Assembly (NCBI GenBank): GCA_028706655.1
Contig: JAQTVW010000006.1
Coordinates: 1-36,595 of the forward strand
Length of the DNA: 36,595 nucleotides
Reading direction: 5' to 3'
Origin: Dehalococcoidales bacterium
Lineage (GTDB): Bacteria > Chloroflexota > Dehalococcoidia > Dehalococcoidales > RBG-16-60-22
A program made the translations under genes and the position numbers. Below are positions 1,519 to 29,534 of the stretch, piece after piece. Position 1 is the first letter of the stretch, and each line of letters opens with the position of its first letter. Below the pieces are notes generated by a model. It worked only from the letters and a program-made list of their open reading frames with translations, ran no database searches and had not been told where the DNA came from.

Positions 1519-2521
1519 GGTCAGGCTGCTCGACCAGACCAGGCTGCCCGGCGAGGAAATCTATATCGAAACCGATGATTACCGCGTCGTCGCGGAGGCT
1601 ATTAAGGAACTCAAGGTGCGCGGCGCGCCGGCAATCGGCATCGCGGGAGCGTATGGCGTGGCGCTCGGAGCACTAAAAATCGAGGCGGCATCGCCGGAAG
1701 AGTTCCGTGCCCGGCTCGCCGAGGTCATCAGCACCATCGCCGGCACGCGCCCCACCGCCCGCAACCTCTTCGGCGCGCTGGAATATCTGCAAAAAGCGGC
1801 GCAAACCGGCAAGAGCGTCGCGCAAATCAGAAACAACATCATCGCCGCCGCCATAACCATCCACGAAGAAGAAGCCGCCGCCACCCATAAACTGAGCGAG
1901 TATGGCGCGGAGTTGATTCAAGACGGCGATACCATTTTGACCCACTGCAACACGGGACCGCTGGCGACCACCGGCTACGGCACGGCGCTCGGCGTGATTA
2001 TCCGGGCGCACGAGCAGGGCAAAATTGTGAAGGTCTTCGCGGATGAGACCCGCCCGCTGCTCCAGGGCGCGCGCCTGACCTGCTGGGAAGCGCAGAAGGC
2101 GGGCATCCCGGTCACTTTGATTACCGATAGCATGGCGGGCTATTTTTTGAACCGCGGCTATATCAACAGTGTCATCACCGGCGCGGACAGAATCGCCGCC
2201 AATGGAGATACGGCAAACAAAATCGGCACTTACTCCCTCGCGGTACTGGCGAAGGAGAACGGCGTGCCTTTTTACATCGCCGCGCCGACGACGACCATCG
2301 ACCCGTGCATCGTGACGGGCGCGCAAATCCCCATCGAGCAGCGCAGTCCCGATGAAGTGACCCATGTGCAGGGCGTGTCTTTAGCGCCCGCGGGCGTCGC
2401 CGCCGCCAATCCCGCCTTCGATGTAACGCCGCATAAGTACATCACGGCGATAATCACGGAGAAGGGAATTATCCGCAAGCCGTACAAAGCGGGAATTAAA
2501 AGCATCACCTCAGTTGCATAG
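1472..2521 (+). CDS. mtnA: S-methyl-5-thioribose-1-phosphate isomerase
   Basis: 349 residues, normal for the family. Converts methylthioribose-1-phosphate to methylthioribulose-1-phosphate in methionine salvage. It has the eIF2B-like fold markers: VRGAPAIGIAGAYG near residue 50, HCNTGPLATTGYGTA with the catalytic Cys159, and ITGADRIAANGDTANKIGT with the catalytic Asp239. Both residues match the Cys/Asp pair known for MtnA. The ATG at 1472 has an AGGAA site just upstream and lies inside the end of the GNAT gene. mtnP follows after an inserted DUF2971 gene, so the two salvage enzymes were probably once adjacent. Confidence 0.95.
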   Translation: MEHQITYAPIEWLGDKVRLLDQTRLPGEEIYIETDDYRVVAEAIKELKVRGAPAIGIAGAYGVALGALKIEAASPEEFRARLAEVISTIAGTRPTARNLFGALEYLQKAAQTGKSVAQIRNNIIAAAITIHEEEAAATHKLSEYGAELIQDGDTILTHCNTGPLATTGYGTALGVIIRAHEQGKIVKVFADETRPLLQGARLTCWEAQKAGIPVTLITDSMAGYFLNRGYINSVITGADRIAANGDTANKIGTYSLAVLAKENGVPFYIAAPTTTIDPCIVTGAQIPIEQRSPDEVTHVQGVSLAPAGVAAANPAFDVTPHKYITAIITEKGIIRKPYKAGIKSITSVA

Positions 2522-2542
2522 CGGCGGCTTTCATACTACAAT
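2514..2542 (+). promoter_or_regulatory. sigma70-type promoter for DUF2971 gene
   Basis: TTGCAT at 2514-2519, 17-nt spacer, TACAAT at 2537-2542. The -35 overlaps the last codons of mtnA. The predicted start near 2549 leaves about 60 nt of leader before the DUF2971 ATG. Confidence 0.45.
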
Positions 2543-2609
2543 CTCAGCATAGTCAGATGTGACCTATCCCCCTCGATTTGAGAGTGGATGAAGGAAGGTC
2601 TAGACAAGA

Positions 2610-3386
2610 ATGTTTCGCCAAGAAGACAATATTGTTACTCCTGAAGATGATATTGTGATATGGCGATACATGGATTTCTCGAATTTTATAGATATTATAA
2701 GTACATCTGAACTATATTTTTCTTCTATAAAGAGGCTAAATGATCCTTTTGAAGGAACTTATACGAAAATAAATAAAGACCTACTAAATAAACAATTACG
2801 CGGTGAAATCACAAAAACACCAGGTCTTGATTTTATTGACACAGAGCATCACAAACTGGAAAACATTCGTGATACATTTCTATTTTTACGGAAATCTTTT
2901 GCGGTCAACTGTTGGAACATAAGCGAACATGAATCTGCTGCACTTTGGAAGATGTATTGTAGTGGGCTTGATGGAATCGCTATTCAATCAACAGTAGGTC
3001 GTTTGAAAGAGGCTTTAAAAACAGAAAGTAGGGATATTTATATTGGGAAAGTAAAATATATTAATTATCTGGTTGATATGATACCTTTCTCCGGGATAAC
3101 AACGCCTATTTATTATAAAAGAAAAAGTTTTCAATATGAAAATGAATTGAGATTATCTACTCTTATGCCGATATCCTCCAAAATAGCTGAAACTACGAAT
3201 CATCTTATTACGAAGAGTCAAGAGGGATGTCGTATAAAAATAGATGTAAATCAATTAATTACAAAAGTATATATTTCACCTACATGCGGTAAGTGGCTCA
3301 AGAAACTTGTGGAATCTGTAACATGTAAATATGGATTGATTAAAAACATTCATCAATCGGATTTGAACAAGAATCCCATATTGTAA
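2610..3386 (+). CDS. DUF2971 domain protein, AT-rich insertion
   Basis: 258 residues. Matches the DUF2971 pattern: an N-terminal IWRYMDFSNFIDII, a strand LYFSSIKRLNDPFEGTY with the NDPFEG motif, and CWNISEHESAALWKMYCSG with the conserved Trp-Ser-Glu-Ser-Trp spacing. The function of DUF2971 is not established. Codon use is strongly AT-biased (many AAA, TAT, ATA) against GC-rich neighbours on both sides, which points to recent horizontal transfer. It sits between mtnA and mtnP in the same direction. The start is uncertain: GGAAGG lies about 12 nt before the ATG. Confidence 0.8.
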   Translation: MFRQEDNIVTPEDDIVIWRYMDFSNFIDIISTSELYFSSIKRLNDPFEGTYTKINKDLLNKQLRGEITKTPGLDFIDTEHHKLENIRDTFLFLRKSFAVNCWNISEHESAALWKMYCSGLDGIAIQSTVGRLKEALKTESRDIYIGKVKYINYLVDMIPFSGITTPIYYKRKSFQYENELRLSTLMPISSKIAETTNHLITKSQEGCRIKIDVNQLITKVYISPTCGKWLKKLVESVTCKYGLIKNIHQSDLNKNPIL

Positions 3387-3408
3387 TATTTTGGAGGTTT
3401 CCTAACAT

Positions 3409-4296
3409 ATGCCACAATCACAACCTAAAGCTAAATTCGCGGTTATCGGCGGCACCGGGCTGTATGACATCGAAGGGATTACGGATGTTCAAGAGGTCAA
3501 CCTCGATACTCCCTTCGGCAAACCGAGCGATACTATCGTGGTGGGGAAGCTGGGCGGCGTTGGCGTCGCCTTCCTGCCCCGGCACGGGCGCGGGCACCGC
3601 ATCCCCCCGACCGATGTCCCCTACCGTGCCAACATCTTCGCCCTTAAATCCCTCGGCGTGGAGTTTATCATCGGCATCAACTCGGTGGGCAGCTTCCAGG
3701 AAGAAATCAAACCCGGTCACCTGCTGATTCCCGACCAGCTAATCGACCGCACGCGCAGCCGGGTGAGCACCTTTTTCCGCGAGGACATCGTGGCGCACAT
3801 CGCCTTCGCCGAACCGTTCTGCCCGCTGCTCAGCCAGACGCTCTACCTTTCGGCGCATGAAGCGGGCGCGACGGTGCACCGCAGCGGCACCTATCTCGTC
3901 ATGGAAGGGCCCGCCTTCTCGACGAAAGCGGAATCGCGACTGTACCGTTCGTGGGGCGCGGACGTCATCGGCATGACGGCGCTGCCGGAAGCCAAGCTGG
4001 CGCGCGAAGCGGAAATGTGCTACGCGATTATCGCCTGCGTGACCGATTATGATAGCTGGCACGAGGCGCACGAAGCGGTCACCGTCGAGGTGATTCTCAA
4101 TACGCTGCGCAAGAATATCGAAGTGTCCAAGAAAATTATCAAGCTAGCAATTAGCAAGATACCAGCCACCCACCGCGATTGCCAGTGCGCCGCAGCGCTC
4201 AAGATGGCGCTGGTCACCGCCCCTGACCTTATCCCGCCGGACAAGAAACAGCACCTCGACCTGTTCATCGGCAAATACATGAAGAAGGAGAAATAA
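3409..4296 (+). CDS. mtnP: S-methyl-5'-thioadenosine phosphorylase
   Basis: 295 residues. Phosphorolyses methylthioadenosine to adenine and methylthioribose-1-phosphate, the substrate of MtnA. Diagnostic segments: GGTGLYDIEG near the N-terminus, the phosphate-binding RHGRGHRIPP, the substrate segment MEGPAFSTKAESRLYRSWG followed by IGMTALPEAKLAREAEMCYA, and TDYDSWH with the aspartate that contacts the purine. GGAGG lies upstream of the ATG. The family overlaps with 5'-methylthioinosine and purine nucleoside phosphorylases, but the TALPEAKLAREAE signature and the mtnA neighbour favour MtnP. Confidence 0.95.
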   Translation: MPQSQPKAKFAVIGGTGLYDIEGITDVQEVNLDTPFGKPSDTIVVGKLGGVGVAFLPRHGRGHRIPPTDVPYRANIFALKSLGVEFIIGINSVGSFQEEIKPGHLLIPDQLIDRTRSRVSTFFREDIVAHIAFAEPFCPLLSQTLYLSAHEAGATVHRSGTYLVMEGPAFSTKAESRLYRSWGADVIGMTALPEAKLAREAEMCYAIIACVTDYDSWHEAHEAVTVEVILNTLRKNIEVSKKIIKLAISKIPATHRDCQCAAALKMALVTAPDLIPPDKKQHLDLFIGKYMKKEK

Positions 4297-26872: not shown

Positions 26873-26919
26873 AAAAAGAGGAGCTCCTACTCATTCTTAG
26901 CTGTTCCGTCTTAGCACTA

Positions 26920-27096
26920 ACCTCACCCCCTTTATCCCCCGCTCCAAATTACTATCAAGCCTTTATTCGTAATTTGGAGCGGGGGAGAGATCTTAAGGGA
27001 GGGGGCTTTGCCCCCTCCCTTTTTCTTACTCCCTCTCCGGCTCAGCCTATCTCCACTGTAATAAAATGACGGAAGCTGGAGAGGGCAGGGTGAGGT
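26920..27096. repeat. Nested palindromic MITE-like element
   Basis: Outer inverted repeat ACCTCACCC (26920-26928) / GGGTGAGGT (27088-27096). Inside are a 17-bp perfect pair (26936-26952 with 26969-26985, core GCTCCAAATTAC), a 12-bp GC-rich hairpin (26995-27021) and CCCTCTCCGGCT / AGCTGGAGAGGG (11 of 12 pairing). No ORF. Probably a non-autonomous mobile repeat. Confidence 0.7.
26995..27025 (+). terminator. Hairpin with T-run inside the palindromic element
   Basis: AAGGGAGGGGGC / GCCCCCTCCCTT, 12 bp perfect with a TTT loop, followed by TTTTC. It could end transcription from either direction; no gene ends directly before it on this strand. Confidence 0.6.
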
Positions 27097-27118
27097 AAGC
27101 AGGATATCACGACCATGA

Positions 27119-27147
27119 TTGACTCCCTTTGTACACAGCTTTATAAT
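27119..27147 (+). promoter_or_regulatory. Near-consensus promoter, leaderless-type
   Basis: TTGACT at 27119-27124, 17-nt spacer, TATAAT at 27142-27147. The predicted start at 27154 is 1 nt before the ATG at 27155. Confidence 0.75.
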
Positions 27148-27154
27148 ACGTCTC

Positions 27155-27310
27155 ATGGGCGGAGACATTTTTACTTTACAATGGGTCCTGACCGGCATGG
27201 TCGGCACGCTGGCAATTATCTACCTTGCCAGACGTTCCAAATATAGAATCATCCTCGTGGTAGCATGGTTGATTCTGGTATTGCTCGGGATGTGGTGGTT
27301 TTCCAAGTAG
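27155..27310 (+). CDS. 51-residue two-TM membrane protein
   Basis: Starts MGGDIFTLQWVLTGMVGTLA; one membrane segment at about 8-24, a short basic loop ARRSKYR, and a second segment at about 33-48 ending GMWWFSK. No family recognised. No ribosome site exists, but a near-perfect promoter places transcription 1 nt upstream of this ATG, so a leaderless start here is preferred over the in-frame upstream codon at 27119, which falls inside the -35. Confidence 0.65.
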   Translation: MGGDIFTLQWVLTGMVGTLAIIYLARRSKYRIILVVAWLILVLLGMWWFSK

Positions 27311-27365
27311 GTCGTTGGCGCTAACTAATTCAATCCCAGAGATTCAGGAACCCACTTGCACATAT

Positions 27366-27393
27366 TTGACAGGGTTTCTGTTCTAATGATACT
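27366..27393 (+). promoter_or_regulatory. Promoter of the 28-residue membrane peptide
   Basis: TTGACA at 27366-27371, 16-nt spacer, GATACT at 27388-27393. With the terminator at 27591-27626 it would give a transcript of about 225 nt. Confidence 0.45.
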
Positions 27394-27490
27394 CTGGGGC
27401 TGAATACCTGAATTATTTTTCATCTTTTTCGCTTCATAGCAATACCAGGTACATTTAACCGGATAGCCACTTTGTTTGAAAGGAGGATGA

Positions 27491-27577
27491 TTGGAAACAA
27501 GAGTAATCGTTTTTATCCTGGCGATAATCGCTGTAATAATAGTCCTTATAATACGAAATCGGAAAAAGAAAAAATAG
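27491..27577 (+). CDS. 28-residue single-pass membrane peptide
   Basis: TTG start after AAAGGAGG (27479-27486). The peptide is METRV, then a run of Ile/Val/Leu/Ala from 5 to 21, then RNRKKKK: a single membrane helix with a strongly basic tail (positive-inside topology). A dedicated promoter and terminator bracket it. The ribosome-site spacing to the TTG is short (4 nt), and an overlapping ATG frame gives a less convincing Asn-rich peptide. It could be a type I toxin-like or regulatory membrane peptide; no family recognised. Confidence 0.5.
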   Translation: METRVIVFILAIIAVIIVLIIRNRKKKK

Positions 27578-27590
27578 ACTAATTAAGTCA

Positions 27591-27626
27591 GGGGGCGATA
27601 CGAATAGTATAGCCCCTTTTCTTTTT
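27591..27626 (+). terminator. Intrinsic terminator after the membrane peptide
   Basis: Two stacked stems, GGGGC / GCCCC and ATAC / GTAT, around a GAATA loop, followed by TTTTCTTTTT. Confidence 0.8.
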
Positions 27627-27703
27627 CATTGAACACTCTACCTCAATTAAAACTCATTCGGTTAAGTTTCCCGCCGTATCGCACAATCCAAAAGACTTTC
27701 AGC

Positions 27704-27732
27704 TTGACACTATTTTGCCTACACCCTAGAAT
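27704..27732 (+). promoter_or_regulatory. Promoter of tRNA-Leu
   Basis: TTGACA at 27704-27709, 17-nt spacer, TAGAAT at 27727-27732. The predicted start near 27739 is about 6 nt before the tRNA. Confidence 0.8.
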
Positions 27733-27744
27733 AAACTCGTTAAC

Positions 27745-27829
<85 letters not shown>

Positions 27830-28876: not shown

Positions 28877-28905
28877 TTGACAGCATTCCAACTGAACGTT
28901 AAACT
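28877..28905 (+). promoter_or_regulatory. Promoter of rdgB-moaA-moaC, leaderless-type
   Basis: TTGACA at 28877-28882, 17-nt spacer, TAAACT at 28900-28905. The predicted start near 28912 is 2 nt before the rdgB ATG. Confidence 0.7.
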
Positions 28906-28913
28906 GAAATTAA

Positions 28914-29534
28914 ATGGAGAAACTCCTCTTGGCGACCAACAACAATGGCAAGGTAAGCGAGTATCGTTTTTTGCTGCAGGGTGTGCCCTTTCAACTAGTC
29001 ACTCCCGCCGAAATCGGTATCACGACGTCAGTCAAGGAAGAAGGCGCCACTTTTGAAGAAAATGCCCGCCTGAAAGCGGTCACGATGGCGCAGCAAAGCG
29101 GGCTGCTCACGCTGGCGGATGATTCCGGACTGGAAGTGGATGCTTTGAACGGCGCGCCGGGCATCATGTCCGCCCGCTATGCCGGTGAAGACGCTTCCGA
29201 TGCCGACCGCATCAACTACCTGCTGGCGAAGCTGAAAGACGTGCCCCCCGGGAAACGCGCCGCCCGCTTCCGCGCCGTGATTGCCATCGCGATACCGGGC
29301 AACGGCGTGGAATTCACCGAAGGCGAATGCCCCGGTTATATCGCCACCGAGCCGCGCGGCACGCAGGGCTTCGGCTACGACCCCGTGTTTTATATGCCCG
29401 AACTCGATAAGACCATGGCAGATCTGCCCGAGGATGTGAAGAACCGGGTGAGCCACCGGGCAAAGGCTGCCGGGAAAGCCATTCCGATTCTCATGAAGCT
29501 GAGCCGGCAGACCGCCAAAGGATATCAAGCATGA
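28914..29534 (+). CDS. rdgB: XTP/dITP diphosphatase (RdgB/HAM1)
   Basis: 206 residues. Removes non-canonical purine triphosphates (dITP, XTP). Typical features: LLLATNNNGKVSEY at the N-terminus, EEGATFEENARLKA, DDSGLEVDALNGAPGIMSARYAG, RGTQGFGYDPVFY, and KNRVSHRAKA near the end. No ribosome site is seen upstream of the ATG at 28914, in keeping with the leaderless promoter. The stop overlaps the moaA start (ATGA), so these are translationally coupled. Confidence 0.95.
   Translation: MEKLLLATNNNGKVSEYRFLLQGVPFQLVTPAEIGITTSVKEEGATFEENARLKAVTMAQQSGLLTLADDSGLEVDALNGAPGIMSARYAGEDASDADRINYLLAKLKDVPPGKRAARFRAVIAIAIPGNGVEFTEGECPGYIATEPRGTQGFGYDPVFYMPELDKTMADLPEDVKNRVSHRAKAAGKAIPILMKLSRQTAKGYQA

Follow-up and report, generated by a model that had tools for sequence, protein, structure and literature searches.

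A stretch of 36,595 bases (here called the window), one of the 151 contigs of a 1.82-Mb Dehalococcoidales genome, contains a small membrane protein gene, ORF A, whose reading frame is under purifying selection in the one pairwise comparison made. Judged from its sequence, ORF A has a leaderless-type start, and it has so far been seen only in its own genus. Downstream of it lies ORF B, a shorter frame for a single transmembrane (TM) peptide. Taken together, ORF A probably represents a leaderless, genus-specific gene for a hairpin protein, and ORF B a TM peptide that is young or acquired. The features concerned are as follows.

27119 to 27147, plus strand: ORF A promoter, TTGACT, 17 nt, TATAAT; 11 of 12 consensus positions, hexamers conserved in the sister genome
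27155 to 27310, plus strand: ORF A, apparently leaderless gene for a 51-aa membrane protein with two helices; sister homologue, hairpin model
27366 to 27393, plus strand: ORF B promoter-like site, TTGACA, 16 nt, GATACT; 10 of 12
27479 to 27486, plus strand: Shine-Dalgarno (SD) sequence AAAGGAGG; predicted mostly paired (mean unpaired 0.14)
27491 to 27577, plus strand: ORF B, TTG start, for a 28-aa peptide with one TM segment and a basic tail; no credible homologue
27590 to 27626, plus strand: intrinsic terminator, a hairpin with one mismatch followed by a T-rich run; seen in the fold and in a one-mismatch scan
27745 to 27829, plus strand: tRNA-Leu(UAA), a conserved neighbor and anchor for the locus in the sister genome

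The sister, Dehalococcoidales bacterium MAG STB_135 (contig JAQTQH010000023.1), is the sole genome of the same genus that we compared. Around the two ORFs, the window carries tilS-like and DUF2344 genes on the minus strand and, on the plus strand, tRNA-Leu(UAA), a metallo-beta-lactamase (MBL)-fold gene, a Ham1-like gene and a moaA-like gene; a promoter-like site at 27704 to 27732 lies beside the tRNA. The MBL-fold gene is 71% identical between window and sister, and the sister homologue of ORF A lies on the same side of this gene and of tRNA-Leu(UAA) as ORF A does in the window. The window genome has a GC content of 0.531 in the sample that we analyzed.

The preliminary description of this DNA had proposed a 51-residue protein with two TM segments. 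The ORF is present (ATG at 27155, stop ending at 27310; product MGGDIFTLQWVLTGMVGTLAIIYLARRSKYRIILVVAWLILVLLGMWWFSK), and two helices are predicted. Its sister homologue is also 51 aa long, and 38 of the 51 residues (75%) are identical. Differences between the two genes fall at codon positions 1, 2 and 3 in the numbers 11, 7 and 26; 17 codon differences are silent and 13 change a residue. We estimate dN at about 0.17 and dS at 2.0 to 2.8 by two methods, the latter near saturation. When the substitutions were instead placed at random, mean identity fell to 25.9 of 51, none of 20,000 placements reached 38, and 16,452 of them contained a stop. Frame conservation in relatives that share the locus, the check proposed earlier for both peptides, is thus borne out for ORF A in one relative, with dN/dS well below 1. 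Codon usage is neutral: 0.45 of intergenic frames score as high as ORF A, and 0.54 as high as its sister homologue. ORF A stands beyond chance because its frame is conserved, and we conclude that it is a genuine protein gene.

A near-consensus promoter of the leaderless type had also been proposed for ORF A, and it too is conserved in the one relative. In window and sister alike, the −35 hexamer TTGACT (starting at 27119 in the window) is followed by TATAAT (27142 to 27147) and then by 7 nt before the ATG. The hexamers are identical at 12 of 12 positions, compared with 9 of 17 in the spacer and 5 of 7 in the gap between the −10 box and the ATG. That the hexamers are better conserved than the spacer supports a leaderless ORF A mRNA, as does promoter spacing kept in two species. 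By eye, no SD sequence precedes the ATG in either genome. ORF A therefore has the sequence hallmark of a leaderless gene, a conserved −10 box some 7 to 8 nt upstream of the start without an SD sequence. The surrounding 3.5 kb holds 6 promoter-like sites, against 2.1 ± 1.5 in shuffled sequence, and the pattern TTGAC..TATAAT..ATGG occurs once in the window genome, at ORF A, and not at all in the control. Transcription would begin on the A of ATG 27155 or on an adjacent base, and ribosomes would initiate on the terminal ATG of the resulting leaderless mRNA. A strict scan lists a short terminator-like hairpin at 27150 to 27166, across the start of ORF A; were the transcript leaderless, the greater part of the hairpin's 5′ arm would be missing from it.

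TA-like signals some 12 bp 5′ of bacterial starts have been interpreted as promoters of leaderless genes, with a TAtaaT form in Chloroflexi and other groups of medium GC content (Zheng et al. 2011, PMC3160421). ORF A has in common with the TA-led genes described there a −10 box 8 to 13 nt before the ATG, the TAtaaT form and the lack of a visible SD sequence. It differs from them in that its case is drawn from two genomes and that wider leaderless use is only weakly visible in this genome. Among 292 sampled genes of the window genome with free upstream DNA, considered with up to four candidate starts per gene, gaps of 6 to 8 nt yielded 11 promoter-like sites where gaps of 10 to 59 predict about 6, and a cruder count gave no peak at the leaderless spacing. 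With so weak an excess, we rejected leaderless starts as a general rule in this genome. Separately, the Ham1-like gene has a promoter-like sequence (TTGACA-17-TAAACT, within 28877 to 28914) whose −10 box ends 8 nt upstream of the ATG, so this gene may also be leaderless.

AlphaFold, run on the two-sequence alignment, predicts helices at residues 3 to 27 and 31 to 50 of ORF A, packed as a helical hairpin (mean pLDDT 78, pTM 0.49, moderate confidence). The product would thus insert into the membrane as a hairpin. On the positive-inside rule, its conserved basic loop ARRSK(Y/F)R would be cytoplasmic and both ends would lie outside.

ORF A has no match above cut-off in Pfam (best DUF981, 15.5 bits against 29) or NCBIfam (best 11.6 against 37), and its sister homologue has none in Pfam (best PGF-CTERM, 15.3 bits against 18.8). 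PHROGs and plasmids returned no match at E ≤ 1. Across 156 genomes of the order (E ≤ 0.05), we found no credible match beyond the window genome and the sister, with weak matches in three other genomes; across 393 genomes of the class (E ≤ 0.01) there was again none that was credible, with weak matches in four other genomes. Pattern scans of the genome-contig and viral-contig collections found nothing; these exclude near-identical relatives only, and the genome-contig scan missed the sister homologue that its collection contains. The one weak match inspected from the order-level and relatives searches is antisense to an ORF resembling, by eye, a response-regulator receiver, and we rejected it. 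So, too, with two of the four class-level matches (those in G293 and G494, which we inspected): both are antisense to a long proline- and threonine-rich ORF.

Since no credible homologue is found outside the genus, what ORF A does can only be proposed. We saw no catalytic motif in its sequence, its hairpin has a conserved basic loop, and no operon partner is kept in both species; on these grounds, the product most likely acts by binding laterally to a membrane complex, in the manner of small membrane regulators. The enterobacterial examples AcrZ, MgtS and KdpF are short, consist of TM helices only and have no enzymatic motif, and ORF A resembles them in all three respects. It differs in having two helices and a leaderless-type start, and the likeness is drawn without one-by-one sequence comparison. 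Short leaderless membrane-protein genes are easily overlooked. Our literature search found no paper that treats leaderless mRNAs or small proteins of Dehalococcoides, and ORF A, with a conserved frame and a conserved leaderless-type promoter, is a specific gene on which leaderless translation in this lineage could be tested. The overall kind of gene is already known.

What of ORF B? The features ascribed to it in the preliminary description (a 28-residue single-TM peptide with a basic tail, a promoter-like site, an SD sequence and a terminator) are all present in the sequence. The frame opens with TTG at 27491, 4 nt past the SD sequence, and its product is METRVIVFILAIIAVIIVLIIRNRKKKK. The SD sequence is immediately followed by an ATG (27487) that opens a competing hydrophilic frame. 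The terminator hairpin spans 27590 to 27618 and is the sole terminator found between 27311 and 27640, appearing in the RNA fold and in the one-mismatch scan and not listed by the stricter scan. We counted small ORFs with an SD sequence of at least 6 nt and a TM hydropathy of at least 1.8 across 101,840 bases treated as intergenic, drawn from 638,533 sampled bases of the window genome (contigs chosen by number; crude gene calling by greedy ORFs of at least 100 aa). Three such ORFs were found, ORF B being the strongest (SD 8, hydropathy 3.46). Of 20 Markov replicates, four had one such ORF, and none reached a hydropathy of 2.8; this comparison overstates the case, since ORF B was chosen after it had been seen. 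We conclude that ORF B is probably beyond chance.

There remains a substantial chance, if a less than even one, that ORF B is untranslated and that 27400 to 27620 specifies a short noncoding RNA or represents a relic, its hydrophobic frame a by-product of AT-rich sequence. The lack of conservation favors this reading. The sister has the locus, with other ORFs in the place of ORF B and no match to it at E ≤ 10, so the frame conservation expected of the 28-residue peptide did not materialize. In 60 other genomes, weak matches occur in 12 (best E 0.038), all within longer open frames; these 13 places, with one more in the window genome (frames of 87 to 1,273 aa, E 0.038 to 1.83), we took as hydrophobic noise. 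There is no match to phage at E ≤ 10, and the nearest NCBIfam entry, an LPXTG anchor, scores 12.8 against a cut-off of 15.9. Codon usage points the same way, being atypical and below that of the average intergenic frame: 87% of intergenic frames equal or exceed its score, and 5 of the 8 isoleucine codons are ATA, compared with 13.9% in genes. So does the start, a TTG just 4 nt from the SD sequence while an ATG in another frame adjoins it. Against an untranslated ORF B stand the Markov replicates, none of which combined an SD sequence of at least 6 nt with a hydropathy of 2.8 or more, and a noncoding RNA would have to be reconciled with a fold z score for 27400 to 27632 of merely −2.0, terminator included. 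We regard ORF B as, plausibly, an orphan with no known relatives; it most likely encodes, downstream of ORF A, a single-TM peptide that either arose recently or was acquired. As a separate observation, a 10-mer from the −10 region of ORF A, TTATAATACG (27141 to 27150), recurs within ORF B at 27546 to 27555; no promoter-like site is listed at this second copy.

Each peptide had been credited with its own signals. This is correct as regards initiation, each ORF having a promoter or promoter-like site, and it does not extend to termination: neither the strict scan nor the one-mismatch scan of 27311 to 27640 finds a terminator between the ORFs. Transcription of ORF A may accordingly run through ORF B. 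The ORF B peptide, if made, would be translated from such a read-through transcript or from one begun at its own promoter, both ending at the one terminator. A long imperfect RNA hairpin at 27328 to 27405 covers the ORF B promoter-like site and has no T-run after it; the fold of 27290 to 27410 has a z score of −1.84, with 10 of 200 shuffles as good.

Perhaps ORF B is a type I toxin, with a single TM segment, a basic tail and a masked SD sequence, held in check by an antisense RNA that we do not see? Membrane toxins of this type commonly are small, with one TM segment and cationic residues mostly at the C terminus (PMC8309996). ORF B fits on all three counts: it has fewer than 60 aa, a TM helix and a cationic end. 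These traits are generic and fit much else. Its SD sequence is predicted to be mostly paired (0.14 unpaired against a null mean of 0.34), but 26 of 200 nulls are as low, so that this masking does not reach significance. The compact arrangement of promoter-like site, leader of about 90 nt and terminator would suit a toxin gene. The toxin family Hol_Tox (PF16935) is the best Pfam entry for ORF B and appears for none of 10 core-shuffled controls; its 15.8 bits nonetheless lie under the gathering cut-off of 23.3, and all 10 controls score higher in Pfam with other families (16.1 to 19.8 bits). For an antisense RNA, the minus strand of 27100 to 27760 has no promoter-like site above 9 of 12, the sole 9 lying at 27412 with a 19-nt spacer, and Rfam gives no match at E ≤ 1. 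Likened to TisB, Fst, Ldr and AapA1, as described in PMC8309996, and to Hol_Tox, ORF B shares size, a single TM segment, a basic C terminus and a structured leader; it differs in its sub-cut-off score, in the lack of a detected antisense signal and in having no credible homologues. Of the toxin look described earlier, then, the generic traits (size, one TM segment, basic tail, paired SD sequence) stand, while the Hol_Tox score is below cut-off and the minus-strand promoters are poor. A toxin is weakly indicated, one option among several, and we consider it unlikely; the label should not be repeated as though it were established.

In the sister (L005, positions 2498 to 3416), the interval from ORF A to tRNA-Leu holds a 128-aa ORF (130 aa from an earlier TTG) and then a 164-aa ORF, both absent from the corresponding place in the window. 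The former begins with an ATG 7 nt past the ORF A stop and encodes a Cys-rich protein that looks, by eye, zinc-ribbon-like; the latter has an Rce1/CPBP-like match below threshold (18.2 bits against 22.4). The presence of other ORFs here marks the stretch as variable between the two species. Because a CPBP (Rce1-like) ORF comes after ORF A in the sister, ORF A could be placed in a bacteriocin/immunity-like unit, with the 128-aa and 164-aa ORFs following it. This is very unlikely, as the window has neither ORF there, a search of the window genome and 39 other relatives gave nothing for the 164-aa protein at E ≤ 0.001, and the 128-aa protein has a single weak match, at another place, in each of the two genomes searched.

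Two further readings seem to us highly improbable. In one, ORF A and ORF B would together make up a membrane module of two peptides, new and particular to this Dehalococcoidales genus: a hairpin protein, leaderless and constitutive, would be followed on the same transcript by an SD-masked TM peptide, the former restraining the latter, or the latter modulating the former, in the membrane. ORF B would then be an exchangeable passenger in the stretch from ORF A to tRNA-Leu, a view suggested by the other genes that the sister has there. In the other, ORF A would be a 63-aa protein starting at TTG 27119, and hence not leaderless; the frame is indeed open from this TTG in window and sister, but the −35 hexamer begins with this very TTG, so that the promoter would sit within the ORF, and of the 12 extra residues 7 differ from the sister, the 5 that match coming from the two hexamers and from the ACG that follows the −10 box.

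We return to the leaderless 51-aa ORF A, whose promoter is abutted by a copy of a dispersed repeat of about 250 bp that resembles a miniature inverted-repeat transposable element (MITE), at 26895 to 27118 (by alignment, about 26883 to 27122). Queried with these 224 nt, the window genome has nine other copies and the sister four, matched over at least 139 nt. From the aligned copies, the repeat runs from GGTTCTGTTCA to TGAACAGAACC, with terminal repeats GGTTCTGTTCA, and has internal perfect inverted repeats of 18 nt and 12 nt. Ten copies with both ends located measure 250 to 263 bp. Among 14 copies besides that of the window, five have clear flanking duplications of 7 to 9 nt, and four have one or both ends not reliably found; for the window copy, the end search did not find the right end, and no duplication was recognized. 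An autonomous partner was sought in 60 stretches of the window genome, yielding one loose terminal-repeat pair. Could the repeat have supplied the ORF A promoter? We rejected this, as the sister has the promoter and no MITE-like repeat upstream of ORF A. The sister's upstream DNA aligns with its own four repeat copies no better than shuffles do (34 to 66 of 200 as good); with the window copy, 5 of 200 shuffles were as good, through a single 11-nt match. Since the sister promoter stands without an aligning upstream repeat, we take the ORF A promoter to be older than the insertion.
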